This document shows positions 10,483 through 15,502 of a stretch of 64,000 nt of DNA, one piece after another. The notes below the pieces were generated by a model. The model was not told the origin of the DNA. It did no database searches and saw only the letters and a list, made by a program, of their open reading frames with translations. The stretch is taken from positions 620,001 to 684,000 of the forward strand of contig CP075895.1 in the NCBI GenBank assembly GCA_018604165.1. The letters run 5' to 3'. Numbering within the stretch: the first letter of the stretch is position 1; every line of letters starts with the position of its first letter. Position numbers and translations under genes: made by a program. Source of the DNA: Chitinophagaceae bacterium LGM1. Its GTDB lineage: Bacteria > Bacteroidota > Bacteroidia > Chitinophagales > Chitinophagaceae.

Positions 10483-12876
10483 ATGATTCCAAAGCCCATT
10501 TCCGTGTCCTTTAAGTTGGACGACGGTCGTGAGATAAGCATAGAAACAGGTAAAATGGCTCGTCAGGCCGATGGTTCGGTTGTAGTACGCATGGGTAATG
10601 CCATGCTGTTGGCTACTGTTGTAGCTGCACAAAAGCCCAAGCCCGGTCAATCTTTTTTCCCGTTAACTGTTGACTACCAGGAAAAGTTTGCATCTGCAGG
10701 CCGCATACCGGGTTCTTTCTTCAAACGCGAAGGCCGCCTGAGCGATTATGAAATATTGATTTCTCGTTTGATAGACCGCGCGTTGCGCCCCTTGTTTCCA
10801 GACGATTATCTGTGCGAAGTGCAGGTACTGGTAACACTCATATCGAGCGACCCTGAAGTAATGCCTGATTCTTTGGCATGTTTGGCTGCATCTGCCGCAA
10901 TAGCGGTATCTGATGTGCCTATACAGGAAGTAATATCTGAAGTACGTGTTGCCCGCATCAATGGCGAATACGTTATCAACCCATATCGTAGCCAGTTAGC
11001 TAACGCTGATATGGACTTCATCATCGCCGCTACCGAAAAGAACATCATGATGGTAGAGGGCGAATCGAAAGAATGTCAGGAAGCCGATGTAGTAAAAGCT
11101 ATTGAACTGGGACACGCTGCCATCCGTGCGCAAATAAAAGCACAGGAGCAACTACGCGACCTGAAAGGCGTAACAGGCAAACGTGCATACGATAAGCCAT
11201 ATACTAACCCTGAATTGGCTGCACATATAGCTACACAGGTATCGGCAGATATACTGAAAGTAGCCAAGAGTGCACTGGGCAAGCACGAGCGTAGCGATGC
11301 TTTCAAAGCCATCCGCGAGGCTTTTGATGCTACACTGGTAGTCAACGAAGATGGTACGACTACAGTACCCGGCTTTGCAACACCGGTAAAGGCAGAAGAC
11401 CTTGCACTGCTGGGTGATATCTTCCACGATTTGGAAAAAGAAATCATCCGCAATATGATGCTCGACGAGCGTACGCGCCTCGATGGCCGTAAGCTGGACG
11501 AAGTACGTGTGCTGACACTGGAAACAGATTTGCTGCCATCACCACACGGCTCTGCACTCTTTACCCGTGGCGAAACACAATCATTAACCACCGTAACATT
11601 AGGTACTAAAGAAGATGAACTGCTGATAGAAAGCGCAGCAACATCAGACTATACCAAATTCATACTGCACTACAACTTCCCGCCGTTTTCTACAGGTGAA
11701 ACAAAACCTATGCGCGGCCCCGGCCGTCGTGAGGTAGGACACGGTAACCTTGCAAAACGCTCACTGGCACAGATGATGCCCGCAGGCGAAGCATGGCCTT
11801 ATACAACACGTGTAGTGTCAGACATTCTGGAGTCGAACGGTTCATCGTCTATGGCTACAGTATGTGCAGGCTCTATGGCACTGATGGATGCGGGTGTACC
11901 TATACCAAAACACGTAAGTGGTGTGGCTATGGGCCTTATATCGGGTACAAACAGCAGGTTTGCTATCCTTACAGATATATTGGGCGACGAAGACCATCTG
12001 GGTGATATGGACTTTAAAGTAACAGGTACGCGCGATGGTATCTGCGGCATACAGATGGATATTAAAGTGGATGGCCTGAGCATGGATATTATGATGCAGG
12101 CACTGGAGCAGGCACGCCGCGGGCGTTTGCACATACTGGATGCCATGTATGAATGTATCCCTGCTGCACGTGCAGAGTTGAAACCACATGCACCACGCAT
12201 AGAGCAGATAAACATAGACCGCGAGTTTATAGGTGCGGTGATAGGCCCGGGTGGTAAAATCATCCAAGAGATACAACGTGAAACGGGTACTACCATATCT
12301 ATAGAAGAAATAAACGACCGTGGAGAGGTAAAAATATTCTCTGCCAATAAAGAGGGTATTGACAAAGCACTTAGCTGGATAAAAGGCATCGTAGCGATAC
12401 CCGAAGTAGGCGAAACCTACGAGGGTGTAGTGAAAGGCATACAGACGTTTGGTGCGTTTGTAGAGTTTATGCCGGGCAAGCAAGGTTTGCTGCATATATC
12501 TGAAGTAAGCTGGAGCCGCCTTGATAGCCTTGAGGGTGTAATGAAAGAAGGCGATAAAGTGAAGATAAAGCTGATAGGTACTGACCCTAAAACGGGCAAA
12601 CTGCGCCTGAGCCGCAAAGCACTGATGCCTAAGCCAGAGGGGTATGTTGAACCCGAAAAGCGTGAGCGTAGCGACCGTGGTGATAGGAACGACCGTGGTG
12701 GCGACCGTGGCCCGCGCCGTGACGACCGCCGTGGTGGTGGCGACCGCCGCAACGAAAACCGTGGCCCACGCGAAGACCGCCCGCGCCGCGAACACAGCAA
12801 CGGTGGCGAGCAACCTGCACAACCACAACAAGAACCACAACAGCCTGCTGCCGACGATGCAGACCTTGCACTGTAA
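10483..12876 (+). CDS. pnp: Polyribonucleotide nucleotidyltransferase (PNPase) with Arg/Gly-rich tail
   Basis: PNPase degrades RNA 3'-to-5' phosphorolytically. Order in the 797-residue chain: first RNase PH-like domain (about 10-150), helical linker, catalytic second RNase PH domain (about 325-550, with GSALFTRGETQ and DILGDEDHLGDMDFKVTG), KH domain (REFIGAVIGPGGKIIQEI) and S1 domain (YEGVVKGIQTFGAFVEF to RLSRKAL). After S1, residues from about 720 form a low-complexity tail of repeated RGD/DRG/RRDD units, then a Gln/Pro stretch and an acidic end (DDADLAL). The core is about 715 residues, so the tail adds roughly 75. It probably adds RNA affinity or partner binding; that is inference. Confidence 0.97.
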   Translation: MIPKPISVSFKLDDGREISIETGKMARQADGSVVVRMGNAMLLATVVAAQKPKPGQSFFPLTVDYQEKFASAGRIPGSFFKREGRLSDYEILISRLIDRALRPLFPDDYLCEVQVLVTLISSDPEVMPDSLACLAASAAIAVSDVPIQEVISEVRVARINGEYVINPYRSQLANADMDFIIAATEKNIMMVEGESKECQEADVVKAIELGHAAIRAQIKAQEQLRDLKGVTGKRAYDKPYTNPELAAHIATQVSADILKVAKSALGKHERSDAFKAIREAFDATLVVNEDGTTTVPGFATPVKAEDLALLGDIFHDLEKEIIRNMMLDERTRLDGRKLDEVRVLTLETDLLPSPHGSALFTRGETQSLTTVTLGTKEDELLIESAATSDYTKFILHYNFPPFSTGETKPMRGPGRREVGHGNLAKRSLAQMMPAGEAWPYTTRVVSDILESNGSSSMATVCAGSMALMDAGVPIPKHVSGVAMGLISGTNSRFAILTDILGDEDHLGDMDFKVTGTRDGICGIQMDIKVDGLSMDIMMQALEQARRGRLHILDAMYECIPAARAELKPHAPRIEQINIDREFIGAVIGPGGKIIQEIQRETGTTISIEEINDRGEVKIFSANKEGIDKALSWIKGIVAIPEVGETYEGVVKGIQTFGAFVEFMPGKQGLLHISEVSWSRLDSLEGVMKEGDKVKIKLIGTDPKTGKLRLSRKALMPKPEGYVEPEKRERSDRGDRNDRGGDRGPRRDDRRGGGDRRNENRGPREDRPRREHSNGGEQPAQPQQEPQQPAADDADLAL

Positions 12877-12901
12877 GCACACACAGGTATGTATGATAAT
12901 G

Positions 12902-12936
12902 AAAAGCCCCACGTATTGCGTGGGGCTTTTTTGTTT
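12902..12936 (+). terminator. Terminator after pnp
   Basis: A perfect 12-bp stem (12902-12913 with 12919-12930, arm AAAAGCCCCACG) with a TATTG loop and continuing T-rich sequence. It is A-rich on the 5' side, so it could also serve the convergent gene ending at 12941. Confidence 0.92.
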
Positions 12937-12940
12937 TGTA

Positions 12941-13594
12941 TTATGCTATTTTCTTTTTACTTCGCAATTCAAGAGTTGTAATAGCATCTGATTGAAAAAC
13001 TTTTGCAATGCCTTTTAAACTACCAATTTGAAATACAATAGGCTCAATAGTTTTGTTTTCAACATAAAACCTAAATTCCTGCTGATACTGAAACTCTTTT
13101 GGTTTTTGAAATAGTGTGACTTTACCATTATATGTTTGTCTATCGTAGTATTCAACGAAATCATGACGAAATCTTAAATTTAATGATTTAAGTTTCTTTT
13201 CAATTAAATTCAAAAAAGCTTTATTGTCTTTTATCATAAGACAATGAGAACCAAATCTTAGATTTCTCTCGTCAAATTTATAATCTAAAGGATTAGGAAA
13301 CCCAAATGATGAAATACAATACAAGCTATAGATGTTTCCTACAACCTCTTTATATGATTCACGAAGTTCAAGGTGAACGAAATTGGCTTTAATATTTAGT
13401 TCTTTATTTTCAATTACTCCACCAGGTATATTCGTAATTTTTGAAATTCCCTCATATTTATCTCCTCGAAGTTCGTTGTCTTCTAATATTCTGAAGTATT
13501 GTATTGGGTTAATATAAATTGTACCATTTTTATATAAATCCATAATATGCTCTTCTTGACCAAATTTTAAGAACATTTGAATGTAATGTGTCAT
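12941..13594 (-). CDS. AT-rich orphan gene of unknown function
   Basis: A 217-residue cytoplasmic-looking protein, no signal peptide or membrane helix. The N-terminus reads FLKFGQEEHIMDLYKNGTIYINPIQYFR and then GDKYEGI; the C-terminal third has KEFQYQQEFRFYVENK. This N-terminal 'small, basic, Y-F-R ... R-G-D-x-Y-E-G' layout with a later QxEFRF element loosely recalls DUF2971-like proteins, but I cannot assign it. The gene is visibly richer in A/T and in AAA/TTT codons than its neighbours, and it sits beside the RAYT/REP repeats, so recent horizontal gain is likely. A toxin or defence role is possible but unsupported. Confidence 0.65.
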   Translation of the reverse strand: MTHYIQMFLKFGQEEHIMDLYKNGTIYINPIQYFRILEDNELRGDKYEGISKITNIPGGVIENKELNIKANFVHLELRESYKEVVGNIYSLYCISSFGFPNPLDYKFDERNLRFGSHCLMIKDNKAFLNLIEKKLKSLNLRFRHDFVEYYDRQTYNGKVTLFQKPKEFQYQQEFRFYVENKTIEPIVFQIGSLKGIAKVFQSDAITTLELRSKKKIA

Positions 13595-13650
13595 GTTTTT
13601 TGTTTATATAAAAATACGAAATAAATTAATCTGATTGAGTACTCCTCTGG

Positions 13651-13670
13651 TTCAAGCGTCCTTGCTTGAG
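13651..13670 (+). repeat. REP palindrome, copy A (imperfect)
   Basis: TCAAGC (13652-13657) and GCTTGA (13664-13669) form the stem around GTCCTT. It is preceded by CTCCTCTGG, an element shared with copy B. It matches copy B except for one loop-side base and the stem end. Confidence 0.75.
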
Positions 13671-13708
13671 CTCGTTTCTAACGAGGACATAACCACTCAT
13701 TTCGCGAG

Positions 13709-13739
13709 GTTGCTTCGCTATCACTCGCAAAGACGGTGT
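13709..13739 (+). repeat. 31-bp direct repeat, left copy
   Basis: This copy and the one at 14679-14709 agree at 30 of 31 positions; the core is GCTATCACTCGCAAAGACGG. They are in direct orientation, 970 bases apart, and enclose the RAYT gene with copies B-E of the REP set. The core resembles widely scattered intergenic repeats of Bacteroidota. Confidence 0.8.
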
Positions 13740-13795
13740 GGAGTAGAATTGTTTAGATTGGCAGCACAGTAGTAATGAGGTTTAATCAGCAGGCA

Positions 13796-13824
13796 CCAGC
13801 GACCTTTCTGTCATTGGTCGGTGG
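13796..13824. repeat. Imperfect hairpin downstream of the RAYT gene
   Basis: CCAGCGACC (13796-13804) faces GGTCGGTGG (13816-13824) with one mismatch in nine pairs and an 11-base loop. No T-tract follows on either strand, so it is not an ordinary terminator. Confidence 0.5.
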
Positions 13825-13854
13825 CGGCTTTCTTTGTTTTACTTTCTCCTCTGT

Positions 13855-13874
13855 TTCAAGCGTCCTCGCTTGAA
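13855..13874 (+). repeat. REP palindrome, copy B (perfect 8-bp stem)
   Basis: TTCAAGCG, loop TCCT, CGCTTGAA. It is preceded by CTCCTCTGT as in copy A. On the minus strand it contains the last codons and the TGA stop of the RAYT gene. Confidence 0.85.
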
Positions 13875-14413
13875 CCCATAACACCGCCACGCAACACATA
13901 CGGGTTCTGTAAATGAGCACTGCTGTATAAATACATTCCCGGTTCAGGAACCAAGCCTGCCCTCACTGGGTTCAAATGTATATACGCTGTTTTTTGTTGT
14001 ATGATATCAGTATAGTGCATAGGCAAGCACGTAGGATGGCTGCCGTTTTGCCATATTTGGAAGTCTTTATTCAGTTCATTGTTTTCACCATGTGCATTAA
14101 ATATTTGCAGCATCCAATCCCTTCTGCTTTCACGTTCATTTTCAGCTATCAGTTTGTACAGTCCTTTGCTTGTATAGGATTTAAAATCTCTTAACCAATC
14201 ACTCATACTCATGCCTTTTTTTCTTCTCGCCAATAAATGGATGTGATTGGACATGATAACATATTCAAACACTTCGAGGCCTTTGTTTTTATTACAATAC
14301 ACAAGGTTGTCAATAATATATTCTTTGTATTCGGGTCTTGTAAAAATATCTACCCAGCCTACAATTGTCAGTGTCAGAAAGTATAATTCATCAGATGTTG
14401 CAGTGCGGCGCAT
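13856..14413 (-). CDS. REP-associated tyrosine transposase (RAYT, IS200/Y1 superfamily)
   Basis: A 185-residue HUH single-strand transposase-like protein. The HUH pair is His57/His59 in SNHIHLL, and the likely nucleophile is Tyr144 in AYIHLNPVRAGLV, a segment diagnostic of RAYTs. RAYTs differ from mobile IS200/IS605 enzymes in being single-copy domesticated genes that cleave REP hairpins and flank themselves with them. Both ends here are bordered by REP palindromes in inverted orientation. The start is ATG at 14413, 22 bases from REP copy C; the last codons (SSEDA-stop) fall inside REP copy B. The frame is intact, so the protein may be active. Confidence 0.88.
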   Translation of the reverse strand: MRRTATSDELYFLTLTIVGWVDIFTRPEYKEYIIDNLVYCNKNKGLEVFEYVIMSNHIHLLARRKKGMSMSDWLRDFKSYTSKGLYKLIAENERESRRDWMLQIFNAHGENNELNKDFQIWQNGSHPTCLPMHYTDIIQQKTAYIHLNPVRAGLVPEPGMYLYSSAHLQNPYVLRGGVMGSSEDA

Positions 14414-14434
14414 AGGTTAAAGATAATAATTAGC

Positions 14435-14456
14435 GTTCAAGCGAGGACGCTTGAAC
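14435..14456 (-). repeat. REP palindrome, copy C (perfect 9-bp stem)
   Basis: GTTCAAGCG, loop AGGA, CGCTTGAAC. The loop is the reverse complement of that in copies A and B, so this copy is inverted relative to them. It lies in the promoter region of the RAYT gene. Confidence 0.85.
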
Positions 14457-14460
14457 AAGA

Positions 14461-14477
14461 TTGCGAGGATGCTCGAA
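14461..14477 (-). repeat. Degenerate REP, copy D
   Basis: TTGCGAGGATGCTCGAA agrees with the REP core at 13 of 17 positions and lies between copies C and E. It is probably a decayed copy. Confidence 0.5.
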
Positions 14478-14485
14478 TAGTGGTT

Positions 14486-14505
14486 TTCAAGCGAGGACGC
14501 TTGAA
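14486..14505 (-). repeat. REP palindrome, copy E (perfect 8-bp stem)
   Basis: TTCAAGCG, loop AGGA, CGCTTGAA, followed by ACAGGAG, the reverse complement of the CTCCT flank of copies A and B. Same orientation as copy C. Confidence 0.85.
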
Positions 14506-14623
14506 CAGGAGTGAAAGAAAGGAAGCGCAGGCAGGGAGTGTGGCAAAAGGCTCGTGGTGGGTAATTCACAGCACGAGTAGAACATACCCCTGTCACCACT
14601 ACGCTACTCTTCGTGGCGACATC

Positions 14624-14640
14624 CCCTTTCAAAAGGGGAA
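14624..14640. repeat. Short palindromic remnant in the RAYT upstream gap
   Basis: CCCCTTT, then CA, then AAAGGGG forms a small hairpin in the 324-base gap between the RAYT gene and the glycosylase. Similar CCCCTTT/AAGGGG scraps occur after the LolC/E-like gene (about 8130-8150). Apart from REP copies C-E, this scrap and the 31-bp repeat, I see no gene in the gap. Confidence 0.4.
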
Positions 14641-14678
14641 TTAATAGAATCGCTCTCTCAATGGTGGAAATACACATT

Positions 14679-14709
14679 GTTGCTTTGCTATCACTCGCAA
14701 AGACGGTGT
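14679..14709 (+). repeat. 31-bp direct repeat, right copy
   Basis: Differs from the copy at 13709-13739 at a single position (GCTTT against GCTTC). See that entry. Confidence 0.8.
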
Positions 14710-14737
14710 AAAACACAAGTTTGCATATTTAACACTA

Positions 14738-15307
14738 TTACCGAAGCAAACCGTGTACTATTGTTTGTAGTTTCGGCACAACTGTTTCTTCAAACCACGG
14801 GTTCTTTTTTTGCCAGATGTTGTTTCGGGGAGATGGATGCACAAGGGGCAAATACTTGGGTAAAAACCGCTCGAAATCGGCTACATTTTTTGTTACACTA
14901 TCTGCCCCATCATTCAAATAGTATTGTTGTGCATACAGCCCTATCAATATGGTTAGTTGGATGTGTTGCATTTCGTTCAGCAATTTTTCGTGCCACAGTG
15001 GGGCGCATTCTTTTCTGGGTGGCAGGTCGCCAGATGTGCCTTTGCCCGGGTAGCAAAACCCCATAGGTACCAGCGCAAATAGCTCATCGTTATAAAACTG
15101 TTCTTTACTAACCCCCAGCCAACGCCTCAATTCATCACCGCTTTTATCGTCCCATGGTGTGCCTGTTTGCTGTACTTTAAGCCCCGGTGCCTGTCCTATA
15201 ATCATGATGGTAGACTTCGGGCTTGCCTGCAATATGGGTTTGGGGGCATTGGGCAAATATGCGCTGCATACTGTGCATGTCCGTATTTCTTTCAGCAAGT
15301 GGTGCAT
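14738..15307 (-). CDS. Uracil-DNA glycosylase family protein, probable Fe-S type
   Basis: A 189-residue base-excision repair glycosylase-like protein. The catalytic motif A is IIGQAPG and the C-terminal motif is HPSPRN, both typical of the uracil-DNA glycosylase superfamily. Four cysteines follow the family 4/5 pattern: CxxC near the N-terminus (CTVC) and a later C-x15-C pair (in FCYPG and KECAPLW), suggesting a 4Fe-4S cluster. I chose the ATG at 15307 (MHHLLKEIRTC); the frame is open 23 codons further upstream but that part looks non-coding. It is expected to remove uracil or deaminated bases from DNA; substrate range is inferred. Confidence 0.82.
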   Translation of the reverse strand: MHHLLKEIRTCTVCSAYLPNAPKPILQASPKSTIMIIGQAPGLKVQQTGTPWDDKSGDELRRWLGVSKEQFYNDELFALVPMGFCYPGKGTSGDLPPRKECAPLWHEKLLNEMQHIQLTILIGLYAQQYYLNDGADSVTKNVADFERFLPKYLPLVHPSPRNNIWQKKNPWFEETVVPKLQTIVHGLLR

Positions 15308-15502
15308 AACGCTATAAAGTACGGCAACGGTTTTGAAAAATAATGTCGTATAGGCGATAATTATGTTAGCACACATTCTCCCCCAAAATCCGTTAAAACC
15401 AAATATTTATATAAGCTATCGTTGAACATATATTTCGTTTTTTTGTTCTTAATCTTTACAAAAAATTGCCAAACCATTATTTATTCTTAAAACAATCTCA
15501 CA

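Follow-up and report, generated by a model that had tools for sequence, protein, structure and literature searches.

A RAYT gene enclosed by inverted REP palindromes in Chitinophagaceae bacterium LGM1: a probable REPtron and candidate recognition rules for the hairpins of Bacteroidota RAYTs

The window analyzed in this work, a stretch of 64 kb from the chromosome of Chitinophagaceae bacterium LGM1, contains a gene for a RAYT (TnpA-REP) protein which is located between hairpins of the form TTCAAGCG-TCCT-CGCTTGAA, inverted with respect to each other across the gene. The features of this locus, numbered from the first position of the window, are as follows:

13642..13649, plus strand: tag CTCCTCTG 5' of REP A
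13651..13670, plus strand: REP A, outer downstream hairpin, with an imperfect stem and the loop TCCT
13846..13853, plus strand: tag CTCCTCTG 5' of REP B
13855..13874, plus strand: REP B, downstream hairpin, with a stem of 8 bp; the TGA stop of the RAYT reading frame is supplied by it
13856..14413, minus strand: RAYT (TnpA-REP) gene for an HUH/Y1 nuclease of 185 aa, with the motifs NHIH, WQ, and YIHLNP
14435..14456, minus strand: REP C, inner upstream hairpin, with a stem of 9 bp, the loop TCCT on the minus strand and a weak tag (ATCTTG)
14461..14477, minus strand: hairpin D, read by eye, a decayed copy that keeps the 25-nt register of its neighbors C and E
14486..14505, minus strand: REP E, outer upstream hairpin, with a stem of 8 bp and the loop TCCT on the minus strand
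14506..14511, minus strand: tag CTCCTG 5' of REP E

A sequence-only reading of this DNA had described the gene as enclosed by inverted hairpins, one of them decayed and three with perfect stems of 8–9 bp, and these features were all recovered in our analysis (B, 8 bp; C, 9 bp; E, 8 bp). On the plus strand A and B have the loop TCCT and the other two, C and E, have AGGA, which indicates that A/B are inverted relative to C/E, and the starts of C, D, and E are spaced by about 25 nt. Folding of the DNA as single strands ranked B, C, and E above 200 out of 200 shuffled sequences on both strands; A folds less well, as 2 and 20 of 200 shuffles, for the two strands respectively, were equal to it. The flank CTCCT, noted earlier as common to A, B, and E, is indeed present on the same side of the hairpin in all three, and C is without a clear tag. 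Palindrome B overlaps the 3' end of the RAYT gene, with the last codons as well as the TGA stop falling inside it. This overlap is not peculiar to the LGM1 locus, since a hairpin lies over the RAYT stop codon at 9 of 95 loci from the survey described below, compared to 57 of 1397 control positions. In agreement with the earlier reading, a search of the window with up to two mismatches found only the four copies at this locus.

The protein encoded by the gene was assigned to the RAYT family by the NCBIfam model REP_Tyr_transpos (NF047646), with a score of 92.8 bits (cut-off 80), and it was also matched by the Pfam model Y1_Tnp (31.6 bits, cut-off 23); its score with the NCBIfam IS200 model (24) is below the cut-off of 55. 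The earlier description of this minus-strand reading frame of 185 aa as an HUH transposase-like gene is therefore upheld. The frame is intact with its HUH and Y motifs in place, and in an alignment of 16 sequences H57, H59, and Y144, which correspond to the HUH motif and the catalytic tyrosine (Y..NP), are invariant. An AlphaFold2 model of the protein (pLDDT 82.7) matched in its fold ISDra2, IS608, and the E. coli TnpA-REP protein bound to a REP hairpin (4er8). The last of these is only distantly related to the LGM1 RAYT (E 7.9e-6, TM 0.57 by query length and 17% identity in the fold comparison; E 2e-8 in the profile comparison). Two regions of the model deserve mention. A helix comprising residues 98–110 follows the motif ESRR, which is found at 86 of 96 RAYT loci including that of LGM1, and in our reading this predicted helix corresponds to the insertion before the WQ strand that is published for TnpA-Y1 subclass 2.6. 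The C-terminus, which ends within REP B, is atypical and of low model confidence, with a mean pLDDT of 42–69 in the last blocks (residues 151–185).

The gene at 13856–14413 had been called single-copy, and it is itself present only once in the LGM1 genome; however, the genome also contains a second, distant RAYT gene (711820–712281) and a third gene of the Y1_Tnp type (1331679). The second RAYT shows 34% identity to the first, it is without the ESRR stretch, and it is flanked by an inverted palindrome of its own, GTTGGTG-TTCTT-CACCAAC, which differs from the TTCAAGCG type. With up to two mismatches this palindrome occurs at 10 places in LGM1, and it is present in nine of 15 genomes of the genus. 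According to the accessible part of an earlier study every RAYT is paired with a REP of its own (Quentin et al., 2018; PMC6006769), and the occurrence of two RAYTs with two different hairpins in LGM1 fits this rule. A short RAYT fragment in another genome of the genus (G006, locus L027) also has the GTTGGTG-type palindrome on both of its sides.

Some other elements were observed in the vicinity of the RAYT gene. Downstream of it, an ORF of 217 aa on the minus strand (12941–13594) was matched by neither Pfam nor NCBIfam at E ≤ 0.001. A gene of the UDG superfamily lies beside the RAYT (14738–15376, minus strand), and a search of 14 other genomes of the genus gave no copy of it. A search of positions 12800–15500 against Rfam gave no match. 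Further, a repeat similar to the CGTC-tagged REPs (CCGTCTTTGCGAG...; Di Nocera et al., 2013; PMC3733652) is present on both sides of the RAYT, at 13709–13739 and 14679–14709 (reverse complement CCGTCTTTGCGAGTGATAGCGAAGCAAC). It forms a direct rather than an inverted pair and is separate from the REPs with the TCCT loop. One other copy with up to three mismatches is found in LGM1 (2385231), and at locus L014 a similar element precedes the RAYT by about 150 nt. This repeat was considered as a partner of the RAYT and dropped, as there were three matches in 112,696 nt near RAYTs (at two loci) versus four in 366,068 nt elsewhere; the accessible part of PMC3733652 states that RAYT genes are never flanked by CGTC units.

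On the LGM1 chromosome (3.32 Mb) the exact stem occurs at six places, viz. three at the RAYT locus, one at 189328 and a pair at 2128635/2128705, and the REP family is thus dispersed, with three exact-stem copies outside the window, in low copy number. When up to two mismatches were allowed, seven places were found (copy A included) as against none for a control read backwards, and judged by this comparison the copies are not due to chance. With up to three mismatches the numbers were 15 and six, and matches with three mismatches are therefore mostly background. In the related species, the exact stem was found at three places in G003, which has five more with two mismatches, and at one place each in G007 and G010; a single-mismatch copy is present in G001. 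Summed over the 14 sister genomes, 18 places with up to two mismatches compare with nine for the control, so that lone weak matches there may be due to chance. It had been pointed out earlier that the association of palindrome and RAYT would be accidental if the palindrome occurred only at this locus. This is not the case, as three exact-stem copies lie elsewhere in LGM1 and the copies from sister species have a similar loop and tag.

The sequences surrounding these copies were compared after orienting them by their pyrimidine-rich loop, the 5' tag playing no part in this step. Eighteen oriented copies were compiled, with a two-mismatch match at 130448 of G003 left out, and 16 of them were scored after dropping the uvrA copy (L007) and L112. 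The T-first loop seen in all 16 is partly built in by this manner of orientation; the loop is TCCT in 13 of them. On their 5' side the copies have a consensus of approximately T-T-C-C-T-C-C-T-G, and the bases G at −1 and C at +1 (12 of 16 each) tend to extend the stem. The pyrimidine content of positions −10 to −2 exceeds that of the far flank in 15 copies and equals it in one, with no copy showing the reverse; relative to the 3' side it is higher in 14 copies, lower in one and equal in one. As the tagged copies are located at different genomic sites, the tag forms part of the repeat itself, and the earlier suggestion that the CTCCT flank serves as a tag of the hairpin gains support for the LGM1 REP family from the pyrimidine-richer 5' side of 15 of 16 copies at unrelated sites. 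The canonical GT[AG]G is not found at the 5' foot of the LGM1 hairpins, where a CTCC-like tag is present instead; by eye, two of the 16 scored copies have GT[AG]G on the other strand, at a distance of two bases from the stem. The start of the uvrA gene (822669–822688) holds TGCAAGCGTCCTTGCTTGCA, a REP-like palindrome with three mismatches, in frame, and the LGM1 UvrA is two residues longer at this palindrome than in the five closest sisters compared, all of which are without it.

Concerning the position of the REPs relative to the 3' ends of genes, which the sequence-only reading had proposed to examine, the 2128635/2128705 pair is located between convergent gene ends, and the 189328 copy lies upstream of a gene. 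The former pair is part of a segment of about 94 nt with two inverted REPs (2128635–2128724), and the same two gene ends are found without these ~94 nt in the sister genomes G004, G005, G007, and G008. The tags of this pair point inward, opposite to those of the RAYT flanks. A difference between genomes was seen at one site, for a REP pair and not for the RAYT together with its REPs, which makes the "self-contained unit" of the earlier description a putative one. No empty site for the RAYT was found via the neighboring UDG gene, which among the 15 genomes of the genus is present only in LGM1. The 189328 REP precedes an ammonia-lyase-like gene (189563), and both REP families of LGM1 are present there; inspection by eye indicated a palindrome of the second family at this site in G003, and several further sisters have the end of the preceding gene just ahead of it. 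Although G003 contains the REP family, its genome gave no match to the LGM1 RAYT protein at E ≤ 0.001, which indicates that REPs can outlast, or come without, their gene, and the REPs of G003 are possibly orphans.

To place the LGM1 locus among its relatives, 96 RAYT loci were surveyed, consisting of 80 named loci (the best 80 of 265 confirmed ones) and 16 loci from the genus, with the RAYT fragment L027 excluded. Judged by their record titles, the 80 named loci are all from Bacteroidota, the genus Acetofilamentum included. Full flanks of 300 nt were available for 189 of the 192 sides; four loci with broken frames (L046, L078, L085, and L096) and one with a downstream flank of 24 nt (L089) contributed to the flank counts, and the Mantel test was carried out without these five, on 91 loci. 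The upstream flank and the inverted downstream flank aligned with a score of at least 14 at 83 of the 96 loci, compared to none of 72 displaced controls; at the other 13 loci inverted flanks were absent. At 30 of the 96 loci, including that of LGM1 (28.5 versus 19), a direct repeat scored higher than the inverted one, and we read these direct repeats as REP arrays or other repeats. Long direct repeats between the flanks, exceeding the inverted ones (local alignment scores of 93–144), were observed at L043, L054, L060, L077, and L107. At six loci (L012, L013, L015, L018, L022, and L025) the outer and inner hairpins of a side differ from each other and the whole block is inverted across the gene. 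Hairpins with a stem of at least 7 were enriched near the genes, with 205 in the 192 flanks versus 47 in 361 control windows.

The polarity of the loops was determined on outermost hairpins with an inner stem common to both sides, a set of 118 hairpins from 59 of the 96 loci, to which the LGM1 locus does not belong because of the overlap of its hairpin B with the gene and the imperfect stem of A. When the loops were read from the outside toward the gene, T was the first base in 99 of the 118 and A the last in 30, and by locus 40 were T-first, four reversed and 15 undecided. Control hairpins had no such bias (T-first in 45 and A-last in 54 of 129). Among 69 hairpins in which one mismatch is followed by at least two further pairs, the mismatch was G.T in 41, its mirror image A.C in 12 and another in 16, compared to four G.T and five A.C among 17 hairpins of the same class in control windows. 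This G.T mismatch, common in the relatives, is not general in the LGM1 REP family (by eye). A universal C-rich tag across the families was considered and rejected, as the sign tests by locus, whose p-values are rough owing to the relatedness of the survey loci, gave C 31 versus 21 with seven ties (p 0.11) and pyrimidine 33 versus 21 (p 0.07). Individual motifs do favor one side (CCCC no more than 16 nt from the foot, 17 of 104 versus one of 104; CCCCGC, 22 of 192 flanks versus one in reverse); with the sign tests not significant, a tag is claimed here for the LGM1 REP family only.

The similarity of the REPs was correlated with the identity of the RAYTs (Mantel r 0.42, 0 of 999 permutations; Spearman 0.17). 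For RAYTs with more than 75% identity the flanks were similar in 10 of 10 pairs (controls 2 of 6), and for those with 60–75% identity in 19 of 52 pairs (controls 1 of 43). The LGM1 RAYT itself adds little to this co-variation, as it has no close relative: the closest protein among the best 80 of 265 shows 51% identity over its best segment and 49% over the alignment, and the closest one from the genus shows 47%. The association of REP and RAYT proposed earlier is supported by the presence of the family in the genome and in the genus, by the inverted flanks at 83 of 96 loci and by the tendency of related RAYTs to have related palindromes.

Of the described groups, the best fit for the LGM1 RAYT is subclass 2.6 of TnpA-Y1. 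According to the accessible part of its description, where it is listed as Bertels group 5, this subclass contains mostly RAYTs from Bacteroidetes, and its hairpins are "atypical" in being without GT[AG]G (Quentin et al., 2018; PMC6006769). Its proteins are described there, like that of LGM1, as having about 180 aa and the motifs NH[LIV]H and WQ, with further copies of the hairpins in the genome, and also an insertion before the WQ strand, to which the LGM1 helix would correspond. The Y motif of LGM1 (YIHLNP) differs by one residue from the published YIH[QN]NP, and membership in the subclass is therefore considered likely. Over the 96 loci, NH[LIV]H was present in 91, WQ in 59, the strict YIH[QN]NP in 40 and Y[IL]HxNP in 91. 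As subclass 2.6 has been published as being without GT[AG]G, the absence of this motif excludes only the canonical subclasses. No recognition rule for the hairpins of subclass 2.6 was found in the openly accessible literature, including the accessible part of PMC6006769; in comparison to the description given there, the CTCC(TG) tag, the loop polarity and the inversion are set out here for LGM1 and its relatives. The REPtrons of E. coli, Stenotrophomonas, and Marinomonas (groups 2 and 3) resemble the LGM1 locus, as far as the accessible parts of their descriptions go, in that inverted REPs flank the RAYT gene, a tetranucleotide is located at the hairpin's 5' foot or close to it, and each RAYT has its own REP (PMC8266576; PMC2817692). 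They differ in having the tag GT[AG]G in contrast to the CTCC-like tag of LGM1 (PMC8266576; PMC2817692), and in REP number, which in the accessible part of PMC8266576 is about six hundred for E. coli K12 and thousands for some Pseudomonas, compared to about seven in LGM1. The element of LGM1 is an ordinary representative of a kind that has been described and little studied; what may be new are the candidate rules of recognition.

Based upon these observations, the locus is very probably a REPtron, i.e., a domesticated gene for an IS200-type single-tyrosine HUH nuclease, present in one copy between its inverted cognate REPs and acting in the following manner. By analogy with TnpA-REP of E. coli and Stenotrophomonas, as presented in the accessible part of PMC8266576, the nuclease most likely acts on the hairpin in its single-stranded state, reading one strand only; the hairpins of IS200/IS605 elements are also reported there to be recognized in single-stranded form with contact to a T of the loop. 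The strand read would be that with the TCCT loop and the pyrimidine tag CTCC(TG) at its 5' foot, the conserved tyrosine would nick beside the hairpin, and REP copies or pairs would occasionally spread to other sites. The part of this reading that is based upon sequence comprises the protein family, the inversion, the copies elsewhere, the tag and loop, the lineage-specific REP pair and the co-variation of REPs and RAYTs. From the analogy with the characterized proteins we infer single-strand binding, strand choice and cleavage on the side of the tag, and it was presumably the LGM1 RAYT itself, rather than a lost relative, that moved these REP copies. The loop polarity suggests that the recognized strand is the coding strand upstream of the gene and the template strand downstream, which means that the tags of both recognized hairpins face outward, and the copies at the LGM1 locus agree with this.

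The very low copy number (seven with up to two mismatches) counts against classical REP behavior, and together with the decayed copies (D decayed, A imperfect) and the odd C-terminus ending in REP B it suggests that the unit may be inactive now. The locus could accordingly be read as a relic, in which a formerly active RAYT no longer moves REPs and the hairpins are decaying or have been co-opted; the persistence of REPs in G003 without a match to the LGM1 RAYT points the same way. We take this reading, which is compatible with the identity of the locus as a REPtron, seriously while somewhat doubting it, in view of the open reading frame with its HUH and Y motifs retained, the three perfect stems, and the REP pair at 2128635–2128724 that is absent from four sister genomes. 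It is improbable that the hairpins are mere transcription terminators or mRNA stabilizers on which the RAYT does not act. Five terminator-like sites were predicted in 13500–14800 compared to a mean of 1.0 for shuffled sequences, one of them being hairpin C (14457–14434, minus strand), and the 2128635/2128705 pair between convergent gene ends would also suit such a role; however, terminators have no need for inversion across the gene, for tracking of the RAYT lineage or for a common 5' tag at unrelated sites, and the 189328 copy is upstream of a gene. Lastly, the locus is most unlikely to be an IS200/IS605-type insertion sequence which transposes as a whole since, despite a common HUH/Y1 fold and the presence of ISDra2 and IS608 among the nearest solved folds, the gene is in single copy with no multicopy near-identical element in the LGM1 genome, its family scores favor REP_Tyr_transpos over IS200, and the hairpins are inverted on both of its sides.

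In addition to the REPtron reading of the LGM1 locus, the survey raises the question of whether the RAYTs of Bacteroidota (subclass 2.6) share a code of their own unlike GT[AG]G, a proposal that we consider about evenly balanced. In such a code the loop of the recognized strand would begin with T, a single G.T mismatch would often be present 6–8 bp from the loop, and some families would have a C- or pyrimidine-rich 5' tag; it would be mainly the stem that varies by lineage, leading to co-divergence of stem and RAYT and to several pairs per genome which do not cross-react. The "atypical" hairpins of subclass 2.6 would thereby gain rules that can be tested, relating to the loop T, the tag, the stem mismatch and the strand, and the many RAYT/stem pairs within one genus would provide a natural set for swaps addressing the co-evolution of the nuclease and its hairpin.
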